A stretch of 64,000 nucleotides of DNA from the NCBI GenBank assembly GCA_025526995.1, contig JAHLKG010000035.1, forward strand, positions 1 through 64,000, read 5' to 3'. The stretch comes from Powellomyces hirtus. Taxonomy: Eukaryota > Chytridiomycota > Chytridiomycetes > Spizellomycetales > Powellomycetaceae. The notes beneath the pieces were generated by a model, which had not been told where the DNA came from, did not search any database, and saw nothing but the letters and a program-made list of their open reading frames with translations. Position numbers and translations under genes: made by a program. This document shows, piece after piece, positions 4,158 to 49,336 of the stretch; the first letter of the stretch is position 1, and each line of letters begins with the position of its first letter.

Positions 4158-7100
4158 TCACGAAACATGTTTTGTGATCCCACAGGCGTCCCTCAGTTTC
4201 AAGAACTGATCCCTAGCCAGTGGTTTTGTCAAGATGTCTGCAACCATGTCCTGAGTCGAGAGATACTCTAATGCAATCTCCAAGCGTCCTAGTGCTTCTC
4301 TGATAAAGTGGTACCTCACTTCAATGTGTTTGGTGCTGGCATGCAATGTCGGGTTCTTAGCAAGAGCAATGGCACCCTGGTTGTCCCCAAAGAGCATTGT
4401 GGGTCCATCCTGCTTGAATCCGAGCTCCCCTGCAAGCAGACGAAGCCAAACAGCTTCCTTGGTGCACTGGGCTAGTGCCATGTACTCTGCTTCCGTGCTT
4501 GAAAGAGCTACAGTGGTCTGCCGCTTGGATTGCCAGGTGATAGGCCCGTTGAACATGAAGATGAATCCAGTGGTTGATCTCCTTGTGTCCAAACATCCAG
4601 CATAGTCGGAATCCGAGTATCCAACCAGCTTCCTAGGCTCAGAGACATTCTCTTTGCCTCCCAGAAGGATTCCAAGTTCGCTTGTGCCCTTCAGGTATCT
4701 GATGATCCGCTTGGCAGCACTCCAATGCTCCTTTCCAGGCTTTGCAAGGTACTTGGACACAATTCCAACTGCAGCAGCAATGTCAGGGCGTGTTCCTAGC
4801 ATGGCATAGATCAAACTGCCCACTGCATTCCTGTATGGCACAGAGCTCATCTCCAGCTCCTCCGTCTCATTCTGAGGTGCCATGTTGTTTCTGAGGTGCA
4901 GTCCATGTTCCATAGGCGTGGCATGAACCTTGGCATCTCCCATGTTGAATTTCGAAACGACCTCTTCAACATACTTCTTCTGAGACAACCAGATGGTGCG
5001 GGTGCTTCTGCTCCGTCTGATGTGAATCCCAAGGAAGTAATTCAGCTCTCCAAGGTCTGTCATCTCAAAAGCTCGCCTCAGCTCCTTCTTGACATCCCCC
5101 AGCTGTTCCTTGCTTGATGAGGCCACAATGAGGTCGTCCACATAGATCAGAATGTACTCTGTTGTCCCATTCTGACTCCTGTAGTACATGCAAGGCTCTG
5201 CAGTCGACTGCACAAAGCCCATAGACTTCAGTTTGTGGTCTATCTTGTGGTTGAAGCGCCTTGCTGATTGCTTGAGGCCGTAGAGGGGTCTCCCAAGCTT
5301 GCAGACCCGTCCTGGATGCTTGGAATCCTCAAAGCCCTCCGGTTGGCGCATGTAGATCACATAGTCCAGATCCCCTTGCAAGAATGCTGTCTTCACGTCC
5401 ATCTGATGTGCTTCCAAGTCGTCTGTGGCAATAATGGAGAACAGCAGTCTCATGGGACCAAACTTGGCAACAGGAGCAAATGTCTCCTGATAGTCCAATC
5501 CCTCTCTCTGAGAGAATCCCTTGGCAACAAGTCTTGCCTTGTATCTGTCAAGCTCTCCTGTGTCCTTCAGCTTTCGTTTGAAGACCCACTTGCATCCAAT
5601 AGCTTTTCTGCCCGTTGGCAGATCCACGAGTTGCCATGTCCCATTCTTGGCAAGAGCATCCATCTCTTCCTGAGCAGCCTGACGCCATTGTGAAGCATCT
5701 GGCATGGTCTGGCTCTCCTTGTAGCTTGTGGGCTCGTTTGAGACAAAGGAGACAGCATAGGCAACTGCAGCAACGTTTGCAGCGTTGCTTGAAGCCTTCC
5801 ACCACTCTCCTGGCGGCTTCCTGAGTCTTTTGGGGGTTGGAGAAGGCTCTGCAGCACTCTCATAGTCAGAGGACGGCTCAGGGGTCCGTTCCCTCATGTT
5901 CTCCTCTCCCTCTGACATGGCTGTGTCCTCAGAGTCGTCACTGACATCCTGCAGCTCGTCACTGACATCCTGCAGCTCGTCACTGACATCCTGCAGCTTC
6001 ATTTCAGGCCCAATTCCCACTTCCAGGCTCTCAGCAGGCAATTGGGGCGTCTGAGCAGACTGGAGGGATGGAATGAAGCTCTTCTCATCGAATTTGACAC
6101 TTCTGGAGAACAGGATCTTCTTAGTCTGTATGTCCATAAGCCGGTATTCCTTGCTGTGGGAGCTATACCCCAGCATGATGCACTTGACAGCAGCATCATC
6201 CAGCTTCTGGCGCTTGTTGGGTTGAATGTAGGCATAGGCAATGCATCCAAACGTCCTCAAATGTCCCAGAGATGGTGGGATACCATGGAACATCTCATAA
6301 GGCGTCTTGGGGCATGCAACAGTGGGAGATCTGTTCCTCAGATAGACTGCTGTCATGATTGCTTCTCCCCAGAAACGCTTGTCCAAGCCTGACTGCTTCA
6401 ACAAACATCTCCCCATCTCCACAAGGGTACGGTTGGCTCGTTCAGCAACACCATTTTGCTGTGGAGTATTTACTGAACTCCTCTGATGCTGTGTGCCCTT
6501 CTCCTTGAAGTGGTCCCTTAGCAAGTTGCTCATGTACTCGCCTCCTGGGTCGGATCTGACAGCTTTGATCTGCTTTCCATGTAGGGGGACAAGTGCTGCT
6601 TCCAGCTCCTGATAGTGCCTAGCAACTTCTCCCTTGGTCTTCATAAGGCAAACATGGAAATATCTCGTCTTGTCATCAATGAATGTGACGAAATAGCGAT
6701 ATCCAGTGATTGTGGGTGGTTCAACTGGTCCCCAGACATCTGTGTGGATCAATCCCAGCTTCTCTGATGCTCTGGAGGCCTGTGCCTTGGGGAATGGCGC
6801 TCTGCTTGCTTTGCTGAGTGCACAAGTGTCACAAATGCTCAAGCTCCCACTAGTTTGAACGCCCTTGGCAAGCTTGGTGAGCCTTCCAATGTCTGCAACG
6901 TTCAAATGGCCGAGTCTCTGATGCCATAGGGACAAGTCCTGACTTGTTGTGTCCCTTCCAACATTGTGGGCAATCCCAGCATTTGCCTGCCCATGTGTTG
7001 TCTCGAATGTGTAGACAAATTGGTTCTCTTTGGCAAGGAAAGCCGTCCCATCCTTTGCAATGATCCGAGCAGCTTGTGGTCCCACTTCAAAACAAGCTCC

Positions 7101-27193: not shown

Positions 27194-29216
27194 GGTTATG
27201 AGCCCTGAGACCGGTCGAATTCGAATCATTCTCCCTTCGTAAAACCTGTAAACTACAAGTCTTCCGTCAAATTCAAGTGCCAAGAAAGTACTGAGCACAC
27301 CGTCAAGATGCCTACTGCAAGATCTCCCATTCTAGGAGTGCAGACCCGCCAACAAGCCCGTCAAGCCACACGAGAAGCCCAACGGGGTCCTGACGCTGAA
27401 GAAGACGTTAATATCGATGCCTTGATCTATCATGATTCCCACGACGCAGATGCCGATGTGGATGAGATGAATCATGGAGAAATTCATGCAGACTCGGCGA
27501 TAGTACCGTCCGAAGTACCGACTGACATTGTCATGGAAATTCTGCAGAGGTTCAAGATGGAAATCCACGAAAAGCTCGACCATCGGATGGACAGGTTGGA
27601 GAGGACTTTATAGACTAGTTCAAACCCGCTCGCTACATCAACTTCCCATCAACAACCCGAGAAGTACGAAAAGCCTCATATCGGTGGTCATCCTATGGCC
27701 GTTTCACCGATGAGAAGCCCAAAAGCGGGCCTTGAGTACCCTTTTCTACATCAACACATTACTCACAGCGAAGTTGAAGCCCCAGTTGCCCCTCACTTTC
27801 GTCTGTCTTCCCCAATGGAGAGCACAACAACTACGAGCAGCAGAAAGAGCGATGATCGAGATGCACAATGTACATCATTCGCATACTTCAAATCTGCAAT
27901 CGATGCAGTATCTACATTCGACGGGACGGGAAATCTCTCAAAACTCGCCGACTTCGTCAATCAACTTACTCTAGTCTTTCGCCTAAAACCTGTATCTGAA
28001 GAAGAACAACTCTCATTCATCTTCACGAAGCTCTCTGGCGAAGCAAAACAATGGTATTGTAATCACCAGAAAGATGCCGAACAAGGGATGGTGGAGCCCA
28101 TCACGGATTGGGAATCCTTCAAGCCTCCCTTCCTCTCGCGTTACCAACCAAGCGATCACGAAGAAACTTTGCTCACTCAACTTGAAAGACTCCGACAAGG
28201 AAGTCATTCCATCTCGCAGTACAATACCTCATTCACGAAGATTACAAGTCAAATCCCCTTGAAGGTGCCGTTCGAAATCTACAAGTGGTTCTATCTTCGC
28301 GGAATGAATGAACATCATGCAGAGCTCGTCAGAACTCAAAGTTTCAAGGATCTCCATGGCCTCATGGCAGCGGCCAAGCGTCTGGATAACGGTAGTAACA
28401 AGAGTAACCAAAACAACCGTTTCGCCAAGAAGAGCGAAAACGTCGCGCTCGAAGCCCAACCTTCAAAGAAAGACGGCTCAAGTCACAAGAAGACCGACGC
28501 AAAGAAGACCACAGACTCAAAGAAGAGACAGAACTTCCCCTGTTGGTTATGCAATTCGAATGAACATACCCCATTCAATTGTCCCCTCAAAGCCAAGGCA
28601 GTCGAAGCCTTAAAACCCGCTGCTAATGCCAACATTGCAGAAGCACATAACGCCATTACACTGGCTTACCTGGATTCGGGCTGCTCACAGCACATGACGA
28701 ATGACATTTCCATTCTCGAATCCTACGAAGAGCACTCAACGCACGTCAGATTTGGAAACAACGCCTTTCTCGATGCCAAAGCAAAAGGGAACGCTATCTT
28801 GAAGCTTTCAGATGGAGATGTACCCCTCACAGATGTTCTCTATGTTCCGAAGCTCGCCAAGACTCTCATCTCGGTCTCCGCACTCACCAAAGATGGAAAG
28901 AGAGTCACCTTTGAAGATGAGAGCGCCATCATTCAAGACTGCAATGGCACTACGAACGACATCACCCTACCTCTCGTTCAAGGAATGTATCACATCTCGC
29001 CAACTCCGATGGCTTTCGTTACTCAAACTCGCTCAAGGACACACGCGTCCAATGTACCGACACACGCGCCAAAAAATACATCTACCGAATTGACAAAATG
29101 GACAAACGCGTCCAATGTACCGACACACGCGTCCGATACATCGATTCAAGCACTCAACCTGTTGACAGATGCTACCGGTATGGCGGTCACGCGTTCTACC
29201 CCGCTCCAAGCCACGT

Positions 29217-29414
29217 CGGAGGGGCCGGCTGCCCCAAATGGGGGGCCAGCCGGCTGCATACTCTCCAGTGAGGGGGCTGGCCGCCCCAATTTGGGGCTGG
29301 CCAGCCCCCCACTGGAGAGTGAGAGTTGTGGGTGCTGTGGTGGGGGGCCAGCCGCCCCAAAAGCACCGGATGATGCTGAGGATGGTGCCCCCTCGGGGGC
29401 ACCATCCGCCGATG
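29217..29414 (+). repeat. GC-rich palindrome cluster inside A2 pol
   Basis: Same palindromes as A1 9185-9370, with small changes and an enlarged Ala-codon (GCC) run. A direct repeat lies just upstream (29040-29140, ACGCGTCCAATGTACCGACA units), which lengthens the spacer by about 36 residues relative to A1. The frame stays open. Confidence 0.75.
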
Positions 29415-30357
29415 GCGCCGCCGCCGCCGCCGCTGCTTCGGCGGCTTCTTCTGGGGCTTGTTCTGGTCCCTTTTCTCCTGTCAACAAAGGAACCCTCTGG
29501 CATCACCGATTGGGCCATCCAGGCACTCACATCATGAAGCAACTCAAGCTCCCAATGACCAACGAAGTCTGCAAAGGCTGCGAGTTTGGTAAGCACAAGC
29601 GCTCACCATTCAACGGTACAATGACACGGTCCAAGACACCACTCGATCGCCTACATTTCGACCTAAACGGTCCGCACATACCCGCAGTTGGCGATGAGAA
29701 ATATGCCCTCGTTGTGATCGATGACTATTCATGCTTCACCTGGATCTTCTTCTTGAAGACGAAGAGCGAATCTACTGCAAAATTGATTGAATTCATCACT
29801 TTCATCGAAAAACAGACCAACGAAAGGGTCAGACGACTTCATTCCAATCGACGGGGGGAGTTTGTCAATCACGATCTGAAAGAATTCATTTCGAAAAAGG
29901 GCATTCTGCACGAACTCACCGCTGCAGATTCCCCACAGTCTAACAGTGTAGCTGAAAGGTTCAACCTCACCCTGTTCGACACCACTCGTTCATTGGAACA
30001 CTCATACGGCATCCCGAAACAACTCTGGACCGAGTTAGCGGCTACATCAGTCTACTTACGGAATCGCCTACCCCACAAGTCCAATAACAACATCTTGCCG
30101 TACGAACGGCTCAACGGCAAAGAGCCCTCACTTTCTCACCTTTGTGTGATTTGGGCCGATGCCTTTGTGCATCTCGTCAAGAGAAAACAAGTCTCAAAGT
30201 TGGCACCGCGCACCACACGTCTCAAACTAAACGGTTACGAATTTGACGGCGCTTACCGCTGTTGGGATGACAACCGTCAAGAAATAGTCATTTCTCGCGA
30301 TGTAACGTTCGACGAAAACTCAGCACTCGAACTCGCAAAAGACTACATTCCCCCCGA

Positions 30358-30490
30358 AGAACTCTACGAAGTCGAAGAGATTCTCGACTCACGTGATGGC
30401 CCGGAAGGCCCCAAATTCCTCTGCAAATGGCTAGGATTCGAAGACGAAGATAATACATGGGAACCGCTCGAAAATGTCAATCATTTGACA
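30358..30490 (+). other. Chromodomain segment of A2
   Basis: Encodes YEVEEI, FLCKWLGF and NTWEPLENV, the core of a chromodomain, with Tyr, Trp and Phe at the three cage positions. It lies after the integrase C-terminal block (SRDVTFDE) and before the RT start (TYKQALSS). Known chromodomains of chromoviruses bind methylated histone H3 and guide integration; the same role here is inference. Confidence 0.85.
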
Positions 30491-32209
30491 GTCTGCGCTG
30501 ACTACATCAACGAGAAGACGGCGATCGCTCTTTCGGCTGCAAGTACCGAAGAACCCCAAACCTACAAACAAGCGCTCTCATCAGACGACGCGCCGAAGTG
30601 GACCGAGGCCATAAATGCCGAATTGAAGTCCCTTCATACCAGTGAAACATGGGAAGTCATTAACCCCAAATCCTTACCGCACAATCAACGGCCCATCCGC
30701 ACTAAATGGGTATTCAAGATTAAGCGAGACCTGAATGGTCAACCCCAACAATACAAGGCCCGGCTTGTAGTGAAAGGCTTCGAACAACGCTACGGCATCG
30801 ACTACAACGAAACCTATGCTCTGGTTGCCAAGATTGCTACCCAACGCGTCCTTCTCGCTCTCGCCGCCAGTCTAGGCTTGAAATGCCATCAAATGGATGT
30901 AGTAACCGCATTCCTGAATGGGATTGTTACCGAGACCATCCTAATCTATGCCCCTGAAGGCTCTGGCTTTCCGCCCGGGACCATCCTTTGACTCCGAAAG
31001 GCCCTGTACGGTCTGAAACAAGCCCCGCGCGAATGGTACTCCCTACTTCACAAGGAACTGACCTCCTTGGGATTCAAGCGCCTGGCAAATGACAATGCCG
31101 TTTACATCAGAACTCTACCTGAAAGTGACTCATCGCAGTACATCTCCGTCTACGTCGACGATCTCCTCATTTTCCCAAAGACCGAATCGGAAATCTCATC
31201 AATCAAGACATTCCTGCACAACGAGTTCAACATGACAGACCTAGGCAAAGTCAACCACTACCTGGGAATGAGAGTTCGAGGCGACTACTCAAGGCACGTC
31301 ATCTACCTCGATCAAGAGTCATATGTAAATGACATCCTTGAGCGCTTTGGTATGCAAGATTGCAAGCCCGTCAACACTCCGATGGACCAGACCAAGCTCG
31401 AACCCTACGAAGTCGAAAATACAAAGACTTCACCTAATCCGCAAGAAGGAGAATATCGCAAAATCGTTGGTTCTCTCATGTACCTGATGATATGCACGCG
31501 TCCTGACATCGCTGTCGCAGTCAGTATGCTTTCTCGCTTCGCAAGCAACCCTTCGCCTCAACATCTGCAAGCTGCCAAGCGCGTTCTTTGCTACCTACGG
31601 GGAACATCAGATTACAGCCTCTGCATCGGCGGAAATAACATCACCCTTCACGGCTACAGCGATGCCGATTGGGGAAACAATATCATTGATCGACGGTCAA
31701 TCACTGGCTACCTTTTCTACATTGGAAATGCGGGCCCCGTTACTTGGGCTTCGAAGCGCCAACCCACCGTTGCTCTCTCATCTACCGAAGCTGAATACAT
31801 GGCACTTTCCTTTGCCACTCAAGAGACAATCTGGCTTCGCTCACTTCTGCAAGAACTCCAAATCCCCGAATATCTCGATGAAAATGCTCGACCTACAATG
31901 ATCTACAAAGACAATCAGTCATGCATCTCGTTGGCAATGAATCCCGTGCATCACGCCCGTACCAAGCACATTGACATTCGACATCACTTCATTTGTGATC
32001 ACATCGACAAGGAGATTCACCTGGAGTACTTACCCACCGCTGAAATGGTAGCCGACTCACTTACGAAGCCTTTACCGGCCTTGGCATTCAAATACCATCG
32101 CGAAAACATGTGCATCAAGCACTACGACAACACCATCATGCCAATGACGAAAGCGTCCATGACGGAGCTCCCAAATGAGTAAAATCCCATCATCGCGGAT
32201 CGATTGCTC

Positions 32210-42754: not shown

Positions 42755-43010
42755 TGTTGTGCGTAGATCCGGTTGGGGTGTAGTGCAACAGAGGAAAGCT
42801 AGCTCGACACTCTCAATGACAATGGGATGATTGTATTGTTGTTAAGTGTAAATGATGGGTGAAAGAGATCTACACTACGAAGAAGAAAGGTGGCTGTGCA
42901 AGCTATCTAAGCATACGCGGTCAGATGAAGCACGATTGCGCAGCGGGGTCACGTGGAGTCTTGGAGCGCTGTCGATTTGACAGGTTTATCTCAAAAGTCC
43001 AATCTCAACA
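42755..43010 (-). repeat. 3' LTR of D
   Basis: 256 bp, TGTTGAG...CAACA on the minus strand. It also lies just upstream of the antisense RING gene, so it may supply that gene's promoter. Confidence 0.93.
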
Positions 43011-43027
43011 CTCCCCCGACTTTGGAG
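43011..43027 (-). other. Polypurine tract of D
   Basis: On the minus strand the tract containing GTCGGGGGAG abuts the 3' LTR. It proves that the RING gene lies within the element, on the pol side of the tract. Confidence 0.7.
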
Positions 43028-43034
43028 ACCAAAC

Positions 43035-43475
43035 ATGCCACAAAACGGTCGAGCTCCGAAGTGTCCCGTTTGTCTTTTTCGAGATGCCGAATTCTGTGGG
43101 GACTGCGGGCACCTGCTGTGCTTCCGGTGTTTGAAGTACATTTGGGTGACACCTGACGACGCCGCACGCAGATGTGTTATTTGCAGGTGATGAAGGAGCC
43201 CCGTTGTGCTGGTTTCAGGGTATTGATATCTCGCATTGCACAGAGAAGAATGGGTTAACCTCTTTGAAGGGGAAGTAACGAGAAGGCGGTGTGACAGGTG
43301 TTATGAAAGAAAAGACTGTCGGACACCGCACGCCTGTGGAGAGAGAAACCCCTGTTTTCTGTGTGAGAGCTGTTCACGGGGTCTGGTGCATCAAAGTGGA
43401 GAAATACGTTGCCTGAAATGCAACAAGTCGGACCGTCGATTGAGATGGTGGTTGCGGCGGGTGTATTTCAACTAG
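43035..43475 (+). CDS. Two-exon RING-finger protein, antisense inside Copia D
   Basis: Exon 1 (43035-43186) begins ATG with A at -3 and encodes a canonical C3HC4 RING: C10-x2-C13-x10-C24-x-H26-x2-C29-x2-C32-x14-C47-x2-C50. Unspliced, a TGA follows at once. A 57 bp GT-AG intron (43187-43243; GTGATG...TTGCACAG, possible branch TATTGAT) removes three in-frame stops and keeps the frame. Exon 2 (43244-43475) adds about 77 residues with a second Cys/His cluster (CDRC, HACGERNPCFLC, CLKC) and a basic tail ending in TAG. The predicted protein is about 128 residues. RING domains usually bind E2 enzymes in ubiquitin ligases; that function is inferred from the domain. It is transcribed opposite to gag-pol, starting 24 bp from the 3' LTR, so it may be a captured host gene. 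The RING pattern and in-frame intron make chance unlikely. Confidence 0.75.
43187..43243 (+). other. Predicted intron of the RING gene
   Basis: 57 bp (19 codons), donor AG/GTGATG, acceptor TTGCACAG, typical of short fungal introns. An earlier AG at 43217-43218 would lead to a stop, so the distal AG is chosen. Confidence 0.65.
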
Positions 43476-43493: not shown

Positions 43494-45962
43494 TCAATGA
43501 GATTTGGCGTAATCTGATTTCGTTCGGAGTCCAGTTCGGTGTCGCAGATCATCAAGTAATGGGCGAGGTAGCGGTTTCGTCAGGGCATCAGCCAGCATGA
43601 GCTTGGACTCAATGTACTGTAGGTGAATGCGCTCGTTACCGACGAGGTCTCGCAGGAAGTGATAACGGACATCGATGTGTTTGGTTCGTTGGTGATGCGT
43701 TGGATTGGCAGCAAGCTTGATAGCGGCCTGATTGTCCTCATAGATGAGAACTGCTGTCTGCTCCGTTGCTGACAGTTCGGATAGGAGACCCTGGATCCAG
43801 AGTGCTTCCTTTGCACATTCCGCAAGTGCAATGTATTCTGCTTCTGCTGTGGATAGCGCCGTTGATTTTTGACGTTGAGACTTCCATGAAATGGCAGCTC
43901 CGTTGAGCATGAATACATAGCCGGAGGTTGAGCGACGCGTGTCCGTACAGCGTGCATAGTCGGCATCCGAATATCCGACAATATCTCCCCCATCTTTGAA
44001 GACAAGAGAGAGATCACTGGTTGTGTTTGCGTACGCGCAAACTTTCTTTGCGGCCGTCATGTGTGCGGCCGTCGGTGCTGCCAGAAACTGAGACAAGCGA
44101 GAGACTGAGTAGGCCAGGTCAGGGGGAGTCCCTAACATCAGCTACATTGGTGTTCCAATGATCGACTGATATTCCTTGATTCCTGATGCGTCGAGGGCGT
44201 CGGCTCCATTGTGCGTGTTTAGATGTAAGGTCGGGTCCATCGGAATGTGATGCGGCCGCATGCCGTTAAGGTTAAACTTCTCGATCATGTCTTTGATGTA
44301 CTTCTGTTGGCCGATGGTAATGCATCGCTTTGACCGGTCGCGCGTAATCTGAAGACCGAGAAGGAAAGAGATCTCCCCCATGTCCTCCATCTTGAAGCGT
44401 TCGGCAAGCGCGGATTTGAGAGCAAGCAGGTCATCAAGGTTTGATGCGAAAATCGTGAGATCATCCATGTAGACGGCAACAATCAGGATCTTTGTGTTGT
44501 CAGTCCGCTTAATGTAGAGCGCGGTGTCGAGTTCTGATACTGAGAACCCAAGCTGTTGAAGAAAAGAGTCGAGAACCTTGTTCCATAGGTGCTGCGATTG
44601 TTTAAGGCCGTAAAGGGAACGGCGTAGTTTGACAACGTCGTCAGTGACGCCGGCTGGGAGCCGCATCCAGATTTCTACGTCGAGATCTCCGTTGAGAAAT
44701 GCGGTGATGACATCCATCTGATGGACGTGAAGGTCGAGCTTAGCGGCAAGCGCGAGTAGCGCCCGCAAGGTGTTAAACTTGACGACGGGCGCATATGTTT
44801 CGTTGAAGTCAATGCCTTCACGCTGCGTGAAGCCTCGGGCAACGAGGCGGGCTTTGAACTTCTTGATGGAACCATCGGCGTTGCGTTTGACTTTGAAGAC
44901 CCATTTAGAATCAACAAGGTGAGTGCCAGACGGTGTTTGCGTGGTGTCCGTGTCCCACGTCTTGTTAGTGCGGTGAGATGAGAGTTCAGCGTCGATCGCT
45001 TGTTTCCACTCTTTCGCGTACGGCGAGTTGATTGCCGCCTGGTAAGTGGCGGGCTCGTCAATGTCAGTGCTGCATGCGGCATGCAGCTCGGCGATTACGG
45101 GTGTGCCGTCATCTTCGATTCCGGTGAATTGCGTCAGGGCCTCTGAATCCTTGACGTTGTCGAGGGGTTCCCATGTTGGTTCGTCGTAGCCAAGCCACTT
45201 GACCAGGAATTCCTCTCCCCCTTCGCCGTTGCGAGAGAGTAAGATGCGCTCAACCACATATTCAGGAGTGGTGTCGCTCTGAGCGACAGGGCTGATGTAA
45301 TCAGCCTCGTTAATTGTGACGTCTCGTGCGTCGATGATCGAATCCGTCGATGCATCATAAAGGCGATAGTTGCCTTGTTTAGTGGGGTGATAACCCACTA
45401 GTCGGAACAGTCCGACAGCGCGAGCTCCGAGCTTGCGGTGTGTTCGACGGCGCACAGGTTGATGCATATAGGCCATGCTCCAGATGGTGCGGAGGTTCGA
45501 TACATCGGCAGGGGTCCCAAACCAACGTTGGTATGGGGTCTCTCCGTTGAGAGACGTTGATGGCGTCCGTTGACGCAGGTAGGTGACGGCCATGGTGAGT
45601 TCTCCCCAAAGTTTGAAAGGAGCGCGGCTGTCATGAAGAATCGCTTGGACCTGGTCCATGAGCGTACGGTTGAACCGTTCAGCAATGCCATTTTGCTGAG
45701 AGGAGTACGGGTGAGTAGGGTTTAACGTGATCCCATCGGCGAGCAGCTCAGCCTGTAGGGGATAGTATTCACCGCCGTTATCGCAGCGCAGCTTCTTGAT
45801 TTTGGAGTCGAGATGGCGTTCAGCGTACGCGCGATAGTTTTGCCAATAATCGTTGGTTTGATCTTTGGTCTTGAGGAGGTAGATGACGGAATACCGTGTG
45901 TATTCGTCGATGAACGTGAGGATGTAGCGGGCGCCAGAGAGGGAGAGAAGATTGGCGTCCAT
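43494..45962 (-). pseudogene. Copia D integrase, chromodomain, RT and RNase H
   Basis: Single frame from the pre-integrase Cys motif (upstream to about 46180) through the integrase core (HSDILDMD; LRCDNGGEYYPL; NGIAERFNRT), C-terminal block (YRLYDASTDSIIDARDVTI), chromodomain (45150-45266), RT (WVFKVKRNADGS; VYMDDLTIFAS, an intact YMDD) and RNase H (GYSDADYARC, STAEAEYIAL, TKHIDVRYHF) to the stop at 43494. One in-frame TAG at 44139-44141 (normally Tyr in SLMYLM) splits RT from RNase H. Catalytic residues otherwise look intact. Gag-protease is in a different frame (-1). Confidence 0.88.
45150..45266 (-). other. Chromodomain segment of D
   Basis: Encodes YVVERI, FLVKWLGY and TWEPLDNV, with Tyr, Trp and Tyr at the cage positions. 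It sits between integrase and RT (TYQAAINS) exactly as in family A, but the sequence is clearly different, so it is not a recent transfer from A. Confidence 0.85.
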
Positions 45963-46114
45963 GTCAAGAATGTCCGAGTGTATGCGATCAAGTGGTTTGG
46001 TTGCAGGTCGAGAGTTTTGCCCATTGAAGGGCAGCCGAGTGGATTTACCGAGGGAGCAGCCGGAGCACAGCGCGTGTTCCGGTTCGACGTTGTTTGGCAG
46101 ATCGAGAGAATAGA

Positions 46115-47788
46115 TCAGATTCGCAGCTTGAAGCGCTCGTTGTCCAATGTGCCCAAAGCATCGATGCCATAGTTTATAGACATTGCGGTCCTTTGTTTTG
46201 CAGCTTCGTTTGCAAAAACAGCGGCGGTGGTTTCAACATAACCATCAATAAATGGCAGGTTTCCGTTGTGGCGGAGCGGTAGGATAACGCGGCCGTTCTT
46301 TAAGATGGAGGAACCATTAGTTGAGAACGTGATTTCGTAACCGTCCCGGTTCAGTGGCGATGTGGAAACCAAGTTGCGGCTTGCTTCAGGTATGTAGAGC
46401 ACGTCGACGCAGACAATGGCTTCATCCGTGTCGTTATTGCTGATGGTGAGTGTGCCTGCATCGTGAGCGGTACGGTTTTCGCCGTTTGCGACGCTGATTT
46501 TGACTGCCGGGATGGGTCGCAGGTCAGTAAGGAGAATAGTGTCCTTGATAATGTGGTGCGTTGCGCAAGAATCAAGGGCGATTGAATGCGAGGACCTGTG
46601 GTTAGTTGCCAAAACGAGGTTTGCTTTGGCAGCAGGTTCTTGCTGATGTTGTTTAAGGAGCTCGCGCGCGTCCTTCATTTTCGGGCAGTCCTTCATCCAA
46701 TGACCGGTTTGTTCGCAGAGGAGGCACGGAGATCCTGGAACTGAGCGGCGGCATTGTTTTTTCCACGATTTTTGGGGCGCGTGTTCATTGGTGTTGGCGT
46801 CCGAATTGCCATGCATCACATGGGCTTCAACGTGAGACTCGGTTTTGGGCACACGAGCGCCCCGTTCTGAGGTAAGCTGTTCCTGTCGGATTGCGGCTTC
46901 CTGCATGGCGTCCAGATCCAAGAGATCCTTTGAGATGATGGCTGAGTAGATAGGGCGCTTGAGTCCCTTGAGATAGCGATGCTCGATTTCTCCTTTGTTC
47001 ATGTCGGGAATCTGCATGACGAGTTTGTTGAACGCATTGTTGTATGCAATGACCGACGTGGTCTGCGAAAGATCATCCAGTTTATCACGGATCATCGAGC
47101 TGAACGCTGGTGGTGCGAATCTCAGGCGTAGCGTTGTTTTGAGGTGGTTCCATGTTCGAGGGGCGGTCCCCTGGCTTTCCTGGGTCCTCCACCAGATGTG
47201 AGCGGTAGATGTGAGTTTGCTTACCGCCATTTTTGCTTCGTGAAGTGGCGGAAGGTATGCAACCTCGAAAAAATTGTCCAGTTTTGCAATGAATTCGAGA
47301 AGTAATTGCGGACTACTCATATCACCATCGAAGTTGGGAACTTGTTTAAGGAGCTCCTTTGCGACGGAATTCATTGAGGACGACATGGGAGAAGAATTCT
47401 CTAATGAGCGAGAGTGTGGGCGGTCCTCCGGGAAAACATGAGGGTTTGCAGCGGCGGCCGTCTGCATTTGCATTTGTGCAAAGGTAGAAATCATCTTTTC
47501 CATCATCTCTCGTTGGGATTCAGCCGCAAGGTGCTGAGACTCCCTTTGTGACTCGGCGGCAAGTTGCTGCGATTCCAGCAGCATGCGTTCCTGCATTTCG
47601 GCGATAATGCGTTGGGATTCCAACAGCGCCTTCTCCAAATACTCCTTGGTGACGCTCTCGTCGTCAGGTCGAGCGGCTCGACTCTTGTCGTCCTCACTGT
47701 GAGGACCCTCATCTGCAGAATCCTGCGTCGGCGCAGGGGCGGTGTTTGTTCCGGACCAGGTCCGAATGGGGCTACGGGACAATGGCAT
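46115..47788 (-). CDS. Copia D Gag-protease
   Basis: 557-codon frame. It starts 67 bp after the PBS. N-terminal acidic region, then a Gln/Glu-rich repeat region (ESQR/AESQ, likely coiled coil, residues ~65-105), then a capsid region of Retrotrans_gag type (LTSTAHIWWRTQ, W.HLKTTLRLRF, LDDLSQT..VIAYNNAFNKLVMQIPD, YLKGL) at about 150-290. Zinc knuckle C-x2-C-x4-H-x4-C is at about 350-363. The protease motif reads DSCATHH where DSGATHH is usual (~46555-46580), a change at the Gly next to the catalytic Asp. The frame runs on past protease and ends at 46115; pre-integrase continues in the -1 frame from about 46195, either a programmed shift or a 1 bp indel. Confidence 0.82.
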   Translation of the reverse strand: MPLSRSPIRTWSGTNTAPAPTQDSADEGPHSEDDKSRAARPDDESVTKEYLEKALLESQRIIAEMQERMLLESQQLAAESQRESQHLAAESQREMMEKMISTFAQMQMQTAAAANPHVFPEDRPHSRSLENSSPMSSSMNSVAKELLKQVPNFDGDMSSPQLLLEFIAKLDNFFEVAYLPPLHEAKMAVSKLTSTAHIWWRTQESQGTAPRTWNHLKTTLRLRFAPPAFSSMIRDKLDDLSQTTSVIAYNNAFNKLVMQIPDMNKGEIEHRYLKGLKRPIYSAIISKDLLDLDAMQEAAIRQEQLTSERGARVPKTESHVEAHVMHGNSDANTNEHAPQKSWKKQCRRSVPGSPCLLCEQTGHWMKDCPKMKDARELLKQHQQEPAAKANLVLATNHRSSHSIALDSCATHHIIKDTILLTDLRPIPAVKISVANGENRTAHDAGTLTISNNDTDEAIVCVDVLYIPEASRNLVSTSPLNRDGYEITFSTNGSSILKNGRVILPLRHNGNLPFIDGYVETTAAVFANEAAKQRTAMSINYGIDALGTLDNERFKLRI

Positions 47789-47855: not shown

Positions 47856-47869
47856 CAGGGCTCATAACC
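47856..47869 (-). other. Primer-binding site of D
   Basis: GGTTATGAGCCCTG on the minus strand immediately after the 5' LTR; the same half-tRNA site as in A and B. Confidence 0.8.
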
Positions 47870-48126
47870 TGTTGTGCGTAGGTCCGGTTAAGGTGTAGTG
47901 CAACAGAGGAAAGCTAGCTCGACACTCTCAATGACAATGGGATGATTGTGTTGTTGTTAAGTGTAAACGATGGGTGAAAGAGACCTTCACTACAAAGAAG
48001 AAAGGTGGCTGTGCAAGCTATCTAAGCATATGCGGTCAGATGAAGCACCATTGCGCAGCGGGGGTCACGTGGAGTCTTGGAGCGCTGTCGATTTGACAGG
48101 TTTATCTCAAAAGTCCAATCTCAACA
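47870..48126 (-). repeat. 5' LTR of D
   Basis: 257 bp, with about a dozen differences from the 3' LTR. Confidence 0.93.
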
Positions 48127-48433
48127 ACTTGGACACAATTTGGATGATTCTTGGCTGATCCTAGAGCCGGAAAATATTGCTGATATCTGCCAGAGGAGTT
48201 TCTCTCTGCCCAATTCCCGTGAAGTGATATGGTCAGTGGATCACTTCATTTATTTGCATTGGACCCCAATTGGACGTGATTTGGATGATCCTTGGCTGAT
48301 TCTAGCATAGGGTTTTGAGCCATTTTGGAGCACTTTTGGATCTGCAGGTGTGCCGTTTGAGCCTGATTTGTGGACTTTTAGGGCTCTGCTGAGACATATT
48401 GCGAATGGCTGTAAAACCGAGCCCCTGAGCTGG
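48127..48433. repeat. Unidentified repeat, inverted copy at 49337
   Basis: The part 48165-48275 matches the reverse complement of 49337-49450 (shared CCCAATTCCCGTG, TTATTTGCATT). Within it TTGGATGATTCTTGGCTGAT and a close variant are repeated 137 bp apart. No coding sequence is seen. D and the solo D LTR each abut a copy of this repeat. Confidence 0.6.
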
Positions 48434-48790
48434 TTTCAGCCAGTTTTGGAGTGTTGTGGGAGAGTTCAAGTTGGAGGGTAAAACAGGGATCCTGAGGCAA
48501 TTCCAAGGGGTTTTGGAACGTTCTGTGAAGTTTCAAGTTGAAGCATAAAACAGGGTTTCTGAGACGGTTTCAAGGGGTTTTGGAGCGTTCTGGGAGGTTT
48601 CAAGTTGGAGGGTAAAACAGGGGTCCTGAGACTGTTTCAAGGGGTTTTGGAGCATTCTGAGTTGGAGGGTAAAACAGGAATTCTGAGGCGGTTTCAAGAG
48701 GTTTTGGAGTGTTCTCGGAGGTTTCAAGTTGGAGTGTACAACAGGGGTTTTGAGACGGTTTCAAAGGATTTTGGAACCTGTTTCAGAAAC
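48434..48790. repeat. ~66 bp minisatellite, five to six units
   Basis: Tandem units of about 66 bp containing GGTTTTGGAGCGTTCTG, CAAGTTGGAGGGTAAAACAG and CTGAGACGGTTTCAAGG, one of them shortened by roughly 10-15 bp. It is noncoding on both strands as far as I can tell. Confidence 0.8.
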
Positions 48791-49080: not shown

Positions 49081-49336
49081 TGTTGAGATTGGACTTTTGA
49101 GATAAACCTGTCAAATCAGCAGCGCTCCAAGACTCCACGTGACCCCGCTGCACAATGGTGCTTCATCTGACCGCGTATGCTTAGATAGCTTGCACAGCCA
49201 CCTTTCTTCTTTGTAGTGTAGATCTCTTTCCCCCATCATTTACACTTAACAACAATACAATCATCCCATTGTCATTGAGAGTGTCGAGCTAGCTTTCCTC
49301 TGTTGCACTACACCTTAACCGGACCTATGCACAACA
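49081..49336 (+). repeat. Solo LTR of family D
   Basis: 256 bp, TGTTGAG...CACAACA, in the opposite orientation to element D. Flanks CAATG and CAATT match at four of five bases, consistent with an old target duplication and loss of the body by LTR-LTR recombination. Confidence 0.88.

Follow-up and report, generated by a model that had tools for sequence, protein, structure and literature searches.

A short, cysteine-rich reading frame on the strand opposite to the genes of a retrotransposon raises the question of whether a mobile element of the chytrid fungus Powellomyces hirtus carries a spliced accessory gene, what the encoded protein may do for the element, and where the gene came from. The frame lies in the window, by which we mean the whole analysed stretch of 64,000 nucleotides (positions 1 to 64,000 of contig JAHLKG010000035.1, assembly GCA_025526995.1); it sits in a repeat-rich contig (C35) of an assembly of 29.26 Mb in 60 contigs. 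Judging from a RIB43A match in this genome, the organism is probably flagellated, as a zoosporic fungus would be. An earlier note on this DNA had described the frame as a RING-finger gene carried antisense inside a Copia retrotransposon, here referred to as element D, whose parts are arranged as follows.

42755..43010, minus strand: 3' LTR of element D, 256 bp (LTR pair comparison)
43011..43034, plus strand: 24-bp leader from the LTR to the start codon (sequence)
43035..43186, plus strand: exon 1, beginning at the start codon and ending after the second base of codon 51, with the C3HC4 RING
43187..43243, plus strand: intron of 57 bp, GT-AG, with three in-frame TGA stops
43244..43475, plus strand: exon 2, with the second cysteine-rich finger, a conserved basic C-terminus and the stop codon
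43494..44138, minus strand: RNase H part of pol of element D, named from its position after RVT_2
44142..45962, minus strand: pol of element D with integrase, SH3-like domain, chromodomain and Copia-type reverse transcriptase (RVT_2) (Pfam)
46115..47788, minus strand: gag (Retrotrans_gag and Ty3_capsid models, zinc knuckle) and Pol_BBD domain (Pfam)
47870..48126, minus strand: 5' LTR of element D, 257 bp (LTR pair comparison)

Positions 43035-43186 of the plus strand, joined to 43244-43475, encode 127 residues, in which a C3HC4 RING (ligands C10, C13, C24, H26, C29, C32, C47 and C50) is followed by a second cysteine-rich finger of RING-like spacing (C67, C70, C82, C88, C91, C94, C107 and C110); the unspliced frame from 43035 halts after 51 codons. 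Re-reading of the sequence has borne out the extent of 43035..43475, the 57-bp GT-AG intron with its three stops and its in-frame junction to exon 2, and the position on the opposite strand between RNase H and the polypurine tract, 24 bp off the 3' LTR, and has corrected the product length from about 128 to 127 residues. As the ATG lies 24 bp from the 3' LTR and the stop codon 18 bp from the end of pol, the gene takes up the whole interval from pol to the polypurine tract, whose likely position, read by eye on the minus strand, is within 43011..43034. A promoter of the gene would have to sit in the 3' LTR, directly upstream on the plus strand.

In one frame of element D the Pfam domains follow the order rve, SH3_retrovirus, RVT_2, which places the integrase ahead of a Copia-type reverse transcriptase. 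A Copia-type gag has not been found among the Pfam matches, the gag matching Retrotrans_gag and Ty3_capsid, and the RNase H frame at 43494..44138 has remained without a Pfam match. Judged by its domains, element D is a mosaic, and the label "Copia-type" rests on pol. The window copy is worn, being the sole one of 35 with T at intron position +5 and having pol split into separate frames; its LTR pair is identical in 246/257 columns and differs in 11/257. A chromodomain (PF00385) has been observed after the integrase in two Copia-order families of the window (44142-47788, minus strand, E 5e-10; 27695-32182, plus strand, E 1.7e-11), both of which are mosaic elements with a Ty3/Gypsy-type gag; no title on chromodomain-bearing Copia elements has been found in the literature searched, including those parts of PMC3248453 that were available. 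Just beyond the 5' LTR, at 48371-48775, lies a tandem array with a unit spacing of 57-67 bp, and at 49081-49336 (minus strand) a seemingly solo, inverted LTR of the same family (96% identical). Since the stretch at ~47858-47869, beside the 5' LTR, resembles by eye what we take to be the complement of the initiator tRNA-Met anticodon arm, a half-tRNA primer as in Drosophila copia is suggested for element D.

The antisense gene has been found in most of the listed copies of the family. A search with RNase H, in which the best 150 of 555 candidates were scored, has given 38 matches of the element D family at 75% identity at least (the RNase H of a second high-copy Copia family is near 50% identical to that of element D), and 36 of these 38 listed matches are directly followed by the gene in antisense orientation, including a copy on C33 in which it is split by an insertion. 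The two others (C10:579154 and C32:121623) end inside RNase H, so that copies lacking the region, which the earlier note had named as evidence against a gene, have not been met with. A DNA search with the gene itself (best 40 of 43 candidates scored) has yielded 40 matches including that of the window, five of them without a scored RNase H within 400 bp. The alignment of the window with the 39 fetched copies comprises 35 gene-spanning copies once the partial ones (L039, L040, L044, L046 and L047) are left out, and a full-length spliced frame of 126-127 codons is kept in 18 of them. The remaining 17 have been counted as carrying a stop, a frameshift or a lost start; among them are one with an in-frame loss (L024), one with an altered, longer end (L025) and one with an open frame without ATG (L045).

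Some of these copies appear to be young. Nine LTR pairs have been picked from the best 40 of 92 candidate LTR matches of the genome, which were those scored, and in seven of the nine the 5-bp flanking sequences match and the LTRs have 0-6 mismatches; the two pairs without matching flanks differ by 4 mismatches and gaps (C20) and by 13 mismatches and gaps (C41). A tandem of two elements on C3 has three identical LTRs and a 5-bp match flanking it. The full gene frame is kept in 9/11 of these elements, the exceptions being those on C30 and C41; the family has moved recently while carrying the gene.

Whether the encoded protein matters to the element has been approached through the pattern of substitutions. 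Fitch parsimony has placed 7 changes on the first and second positions of the Cys/His codons (40 sites) and 289 on those of the other codons (214 sites); about 47 were expected for the former (binomial P 3e-14), and each of the seven occurs in a single copy. Neutral evolution simulated 300 times along the same tree, an approximation that starts from one present copy at the midpoint root, has changed 61-319 Cys/His cells versus 8 observed, and has left 0-5 of the 20 ligand sites invariant versus 14/20 observed. The random decay of the Cys/His positions that the earlier note had considered has thus been tested and has not been seen. A dN/dS estimate, which it had proposed for the RING cysteines, has given for the whole gene 0.52 (bootstrap 0.39-0.68, 12 copies) with values below 1 in all 2000 whole-gene bootstraps, and 0.61 (0.47-0.81, 12 copies) when the Cys/His codons are removed, these being pairwise estimates made without a codon-model program and bootstrapped over codons, not lineages. 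Within 17 young copies pN/pS is 0.31, and for the C-terminal 19 codons alone the dN/dS interval spans 0.16-1.71. In 11 copies the dN/dS of the gene (0.50, dS 0.32) exceeds that of RNase H (0.18, dS 0.34), the gene being selected and less constrained; a value near 0.5 is also expected of a weakly constrained gene. The zinc scaffold is fixed and the remainder changes fast, a pattern that fits changing partners and loose constraint alike. Taken together, the codon patterns indicate that the gene is under purifying selection centred on the zinc ligands. As a trans-acting protein helps all copies, selection per copy would need a cis-preference or few active copies.

These results bear on the idea that the protein is irrelevant and that antisense transcription over the 3' end controls copy number via double-stranded or antisense RNA, the frame being a passenger. 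In other elements antisense transcripts are thought capable of such control, as far as the accessible part of the source goes (PMC7264820), and the stop-free copies (23/35 in the window-anchored frame) are no more than neutral simulations give (0-28, mean 5.9), a count which by itself is no evidence against neutrality. Selection on the ligands and the dN/dS below 1 speak against a passenger, a reading that the parsimony counts, dN/dS and neutral simulations largely refute and that we consider improbable.

The origin of the gene has been addressed by protein searches of the genome, which have revealed divergent relatives on five contigs.

L055, C1: intact, 119 aa
L056, C34: 93% identical DNA, with a stop in exon 1
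L054, C17:554500-564400, about 4828-5055: exon 2 only
L058, C5: start only
L057, C3:1064000-1073900, 4920-5172: intronless, degraded

The C1 product shares 50, 49, 45, 45 and 38% identity with five products of the element and has in common with them the eight RING ligands and the eight cysteines of the second finger, but not C76, H80 and H100. Its gene is interrupted by a 67-bp intron at the homologous codon and in the same phase as in the element, and stands head-to-head with a dynein LC8 gene (C1:351735-351980). The search for a host homologue, which the earlier note had proposed, has thereby turned up a candidate in the same genome. Fragments on C23 and C39 have been matched as well, that on C23 being of the D type where read, and a short match has been noticed on C11. 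Frames beside the C1 gene (L055 1306-3416) are partly common to C34; one of them, Fanzor-like by eye, has been dropped after Pfam gave no match. In the C17 relative, exon 2 is open and preceded by intron-like sequence, and exon 1 has not been found in the fetched stretch. The C3 relative has on one side an integrase frame of Gypsy type (by eye) and on the other a decayed pol of Copia type, the latter ~1.1 kb away on the opposite strand; it may be a processed copy, or it may belong to another element that carries it.

The earlier suggestion of a captured host gene is favoured by this non-element relative; the tree, being midpoint-rooted, does not bear on the direction of transfer. With one intact relative and no outgroup, a host source would be the simplest reading and is favoured here. 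Conversely, the element may have taken no host gene, the C1 relative being a domesticated or relic antisense gene of a mobile element and the gene itself being old in retroelements. The relatives on C34, C17, C5 and C3 are broken or partial, which leaves one intact non-element relative; the gene is absent from three other LC8 loci (1.5 kb each), so that the LC8 neighbourhood need not be ancestral; and the C3 relic lies close to a Copia pol. This reversed history is weakened by the 9.9 kb around the C1 gene, where a search with the polyproteins of the three Copia families present in the window has given no match, and by the copy that was read from the second high-copy Copia family, in which the antisense gene has no room because pol reaches to within ~10 bp of the apparent LTR end (by eye). 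We regard it as rather unlikely.

Splicing of the antisense transcript has been judged from the 35 gene-spanning copies. The donor GT and the hexamer GCACAG that closes the intron are invariant in all of them, the latter with zero changes against 1.09 per site in the intron body; at donor position +3, 31 copies have G and 4 have A, and at position +5, 32 copies have G, 2 have A and the window copy alone has T. The intron measures 57 nt in 31 copies, 56 in 3 and 59 in one (L038), whose spliced frame of 126 aa is intact, so that in this copy the reading frame depends on removal of the intron. The split codon 51 reads AGA in 29 copies and AGG in 6, and thus encodes Arg in 35/35. The C3 relative is intronless at the junction (by eye), as a processed copy would be. 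From the invariance of donor and acceptor, the intron lengths together with the L038 frame, the constancy of codon 51 and the intronless relative, splicing is very likely. A strict CTRAY branch motif has been found in 25/35 copies only. An alternative 32-bp intron ending in TTTCAG has been rejected, as this motif is altered in some copies (L032, L045) and GCACAG is invariant in all 35. That the frame arose by chance in non-coding sequence separating pol from the LTR might be suspected from a short product without database relative; this reading is opposed by the Cys/His conservation, dN/dS, the intron signals, the C1 relative and the neutral simulations alike and is refuted, its probability being next to nil.

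What the product might be is less clearly defined. The "perfect C3HC4 RING" of the earlier note holds for the ligand pattern, since ligand order and spacing of the first finger are conserved and match the C3HC4 RING pattern, and does not hold for the Pfam RING models, all of which stay under their curated cut-offs: the best score, that of exon 1 by itself, is 23.3 bits (PF15227, cut-off 30), whereas the joined product reaches 17.5 and the host-type relative on C1 22.8 (PF13920, cut-off 27). In the alignment the second finger follows C-x2-C-x11-C-x(2 or 5)-C-x2-C-x2-C-x12-C-x2-C, eight cysteines in a RING-like arrangement; it has given no significant Pfam or PDB-profile match, the weak hits being to zinc ribbons, UBR boxes and RINGs. 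When the profile of the element products was searched against the PDB, 21/24 weak hits were RING proteins (best E 0.022), among the hits being the RING domain of a horse herpesvirus (1chc) with a non-significant E of 0.29. An Arg follows the last RING cysteine in 35/35 element copies, versus Gln in the C1 product; in active RING ligases this position contacts ubiquitin. The structure prediction proposed earlier has been run and has returned single-sequence models too poor to use (pLDDT 65 for exon 1 and 56 for exon 2). In a search of 5.8 billion proteins, which finds only relatives sharing five-residue words, the window product has given 3 candidates, none at E 1, and an alignment of 7 element products as well as one including the host-type product 1260 candidates each, none at E 10; among viral contigs 121 stretches fit a search pattern, and none has been confirmed as a relative.

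From these data, we give ubiquitin-ligase activity of the product about an even chance. A selected accessory protein that is no ligase, acting as a zinc-finger nucleic-acid-binding or scaffold protein, e.g., a regulator of element transcription or RNA, a role known for HBZ of HTLV, is a somewhat less probable alternative. It would agree with the sub-threshold Pfam scores, the unspecific weak matches of the second finger, the strongly kept basic C-terminus and the Gln of the C1 relative, and regulatory or DNA-binding roles have been proposed for plant antisense genes in what was accessible of the sources (PMC7264820, PMC11963269). The ligand spacing of the first finger, the predominance of RING proteins among the PDB hits and the Arg in all element copies argue against it.

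The reading that we put forward, and to which we give roughly equal chances of being right and wrong, is that of a selected, spliced antisense accessory gene in a recently active Copia-type family, coding for a host-derived, LTR-driven tandem-RING ligase or RING cofactor. Under this proposal the gene would have been taken from the host at the DNA level, intron included, and the U3 end of the 3' LTR would supply its promoter. The intron would be removed from the antisense transcript and could survive transposition because the genomic RNA bears its complement. The resulting small tandem-RING protein would serve the element as ubiquitin ligase or RING cofactor, and its most likely action would be the tagging of a host protein that limits transposition. 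The fuller version, in which a captured host tandem-RING gene with its intron kept and driven antisense from the LTR yields a ubiquitin ligase directed against a restriction factor in the manner of Vif or ICP0, is doubtful, as is the counter-defence role of the product taken separately; no particular host target is indicated by the comparisons made here.

Genes of this position form a recognised class. Antisense genes located in the interval from pol to the 3' LTR (aORF-3R) recur in retrotransposons and are described as being of unknown function in the part of the source available (PMC7264820), and by its position and its presence in most copies the present gene belongs, on sequence grounds, to this class. 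In place, orientation and presence in most copies it resembles the aORF-3R genes including brtn of the Botrytis element Boty, as far as the sources were accessible (PMC7264820, PMC8365987, PMC11963269). In the same partial sources Retand (PMC11963269) and Boty (PMC8365987) are Gypsy-type elements, and the antisense genes of Retand bear TRP28, Smc and a few other domains (PMC11963269). The present gene differs from those of Retand and Boty in its Copia-type carrier, its tandem zinc-finger product, its conserved intron and its relative outside the elements. Grande and RIRE2 are likewise Gypsy-type. The main text of PMC7264820 makes no use of the terms RING, zinc or intron, nor does that of PMC11963269 use zinc finger or intron, and no RING product of such an antisense gene is named in the literature searched, which was mostly open-access. 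The earlier note, which knew of no described Copia element with such a gene, agrees with this literature, except that the antisense position itself is known; to the extent of the search, the novelty lies in a tandem zinc-finger product made from a spliced gene, in a carrier of Copia type and in a relative located elsewhere than in the element.

More distant parallels exist among elements with added genes. The ORF3s of bdelloid LTR elements are captured genes expressed from spliced messages, as far as the part consulted shows (PMC5408684); they resemble the present case as domain genes added to an LTR element and differ in that RING, zinc and intron are absent from the main text of that source. 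The same likeness of an added domain gene holds for certain LTR elements of orchids. These, of the Gypsy type, have reportedly gained an m6A demethylase domain. HBZ of HTLV-1 is transcribed from the 3' LTR in antisense direction relative to the genome, is spliced, and encodes a bZIP regulator; it shares with the present gene the spliced antisense arrangement beside the 3' LTR and differs from its zinc finger in the bZIP product, and no homology is claimed. The accessible part of PMC7264820 refers to a promoter of antisense direction within the HTLV 3' LTR. As to the possible working mode, a RING protein that marks host proteins would find an analogy in herpesviruses. Their ICP0 is a RING accessory protein of this kind of action, and tandem-RING and C4C4-RING ligases exist as well, to which the RING-like spacing of eight cysteines in the second finger may be compared, with no significant sequence match.

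The gene described here stands out within the antisense class by a biochemical type that can be recognised, by an intron that is conserved, and by a relative which the same genome contains outside the elements. Three questions have thereby been made testable, namely the function of antisense genes, the uptake of host ubiquitin-system genes by mobile elements, and the persistence of introns on the strand opposite to the element's own genes. If the proposed reading is true, the element uses an enzyme for protein tagging that is akin to one of the host's own, and if the counter-defence reading were true as well, the host-type relative would still be at hand in the same genome for comparison.
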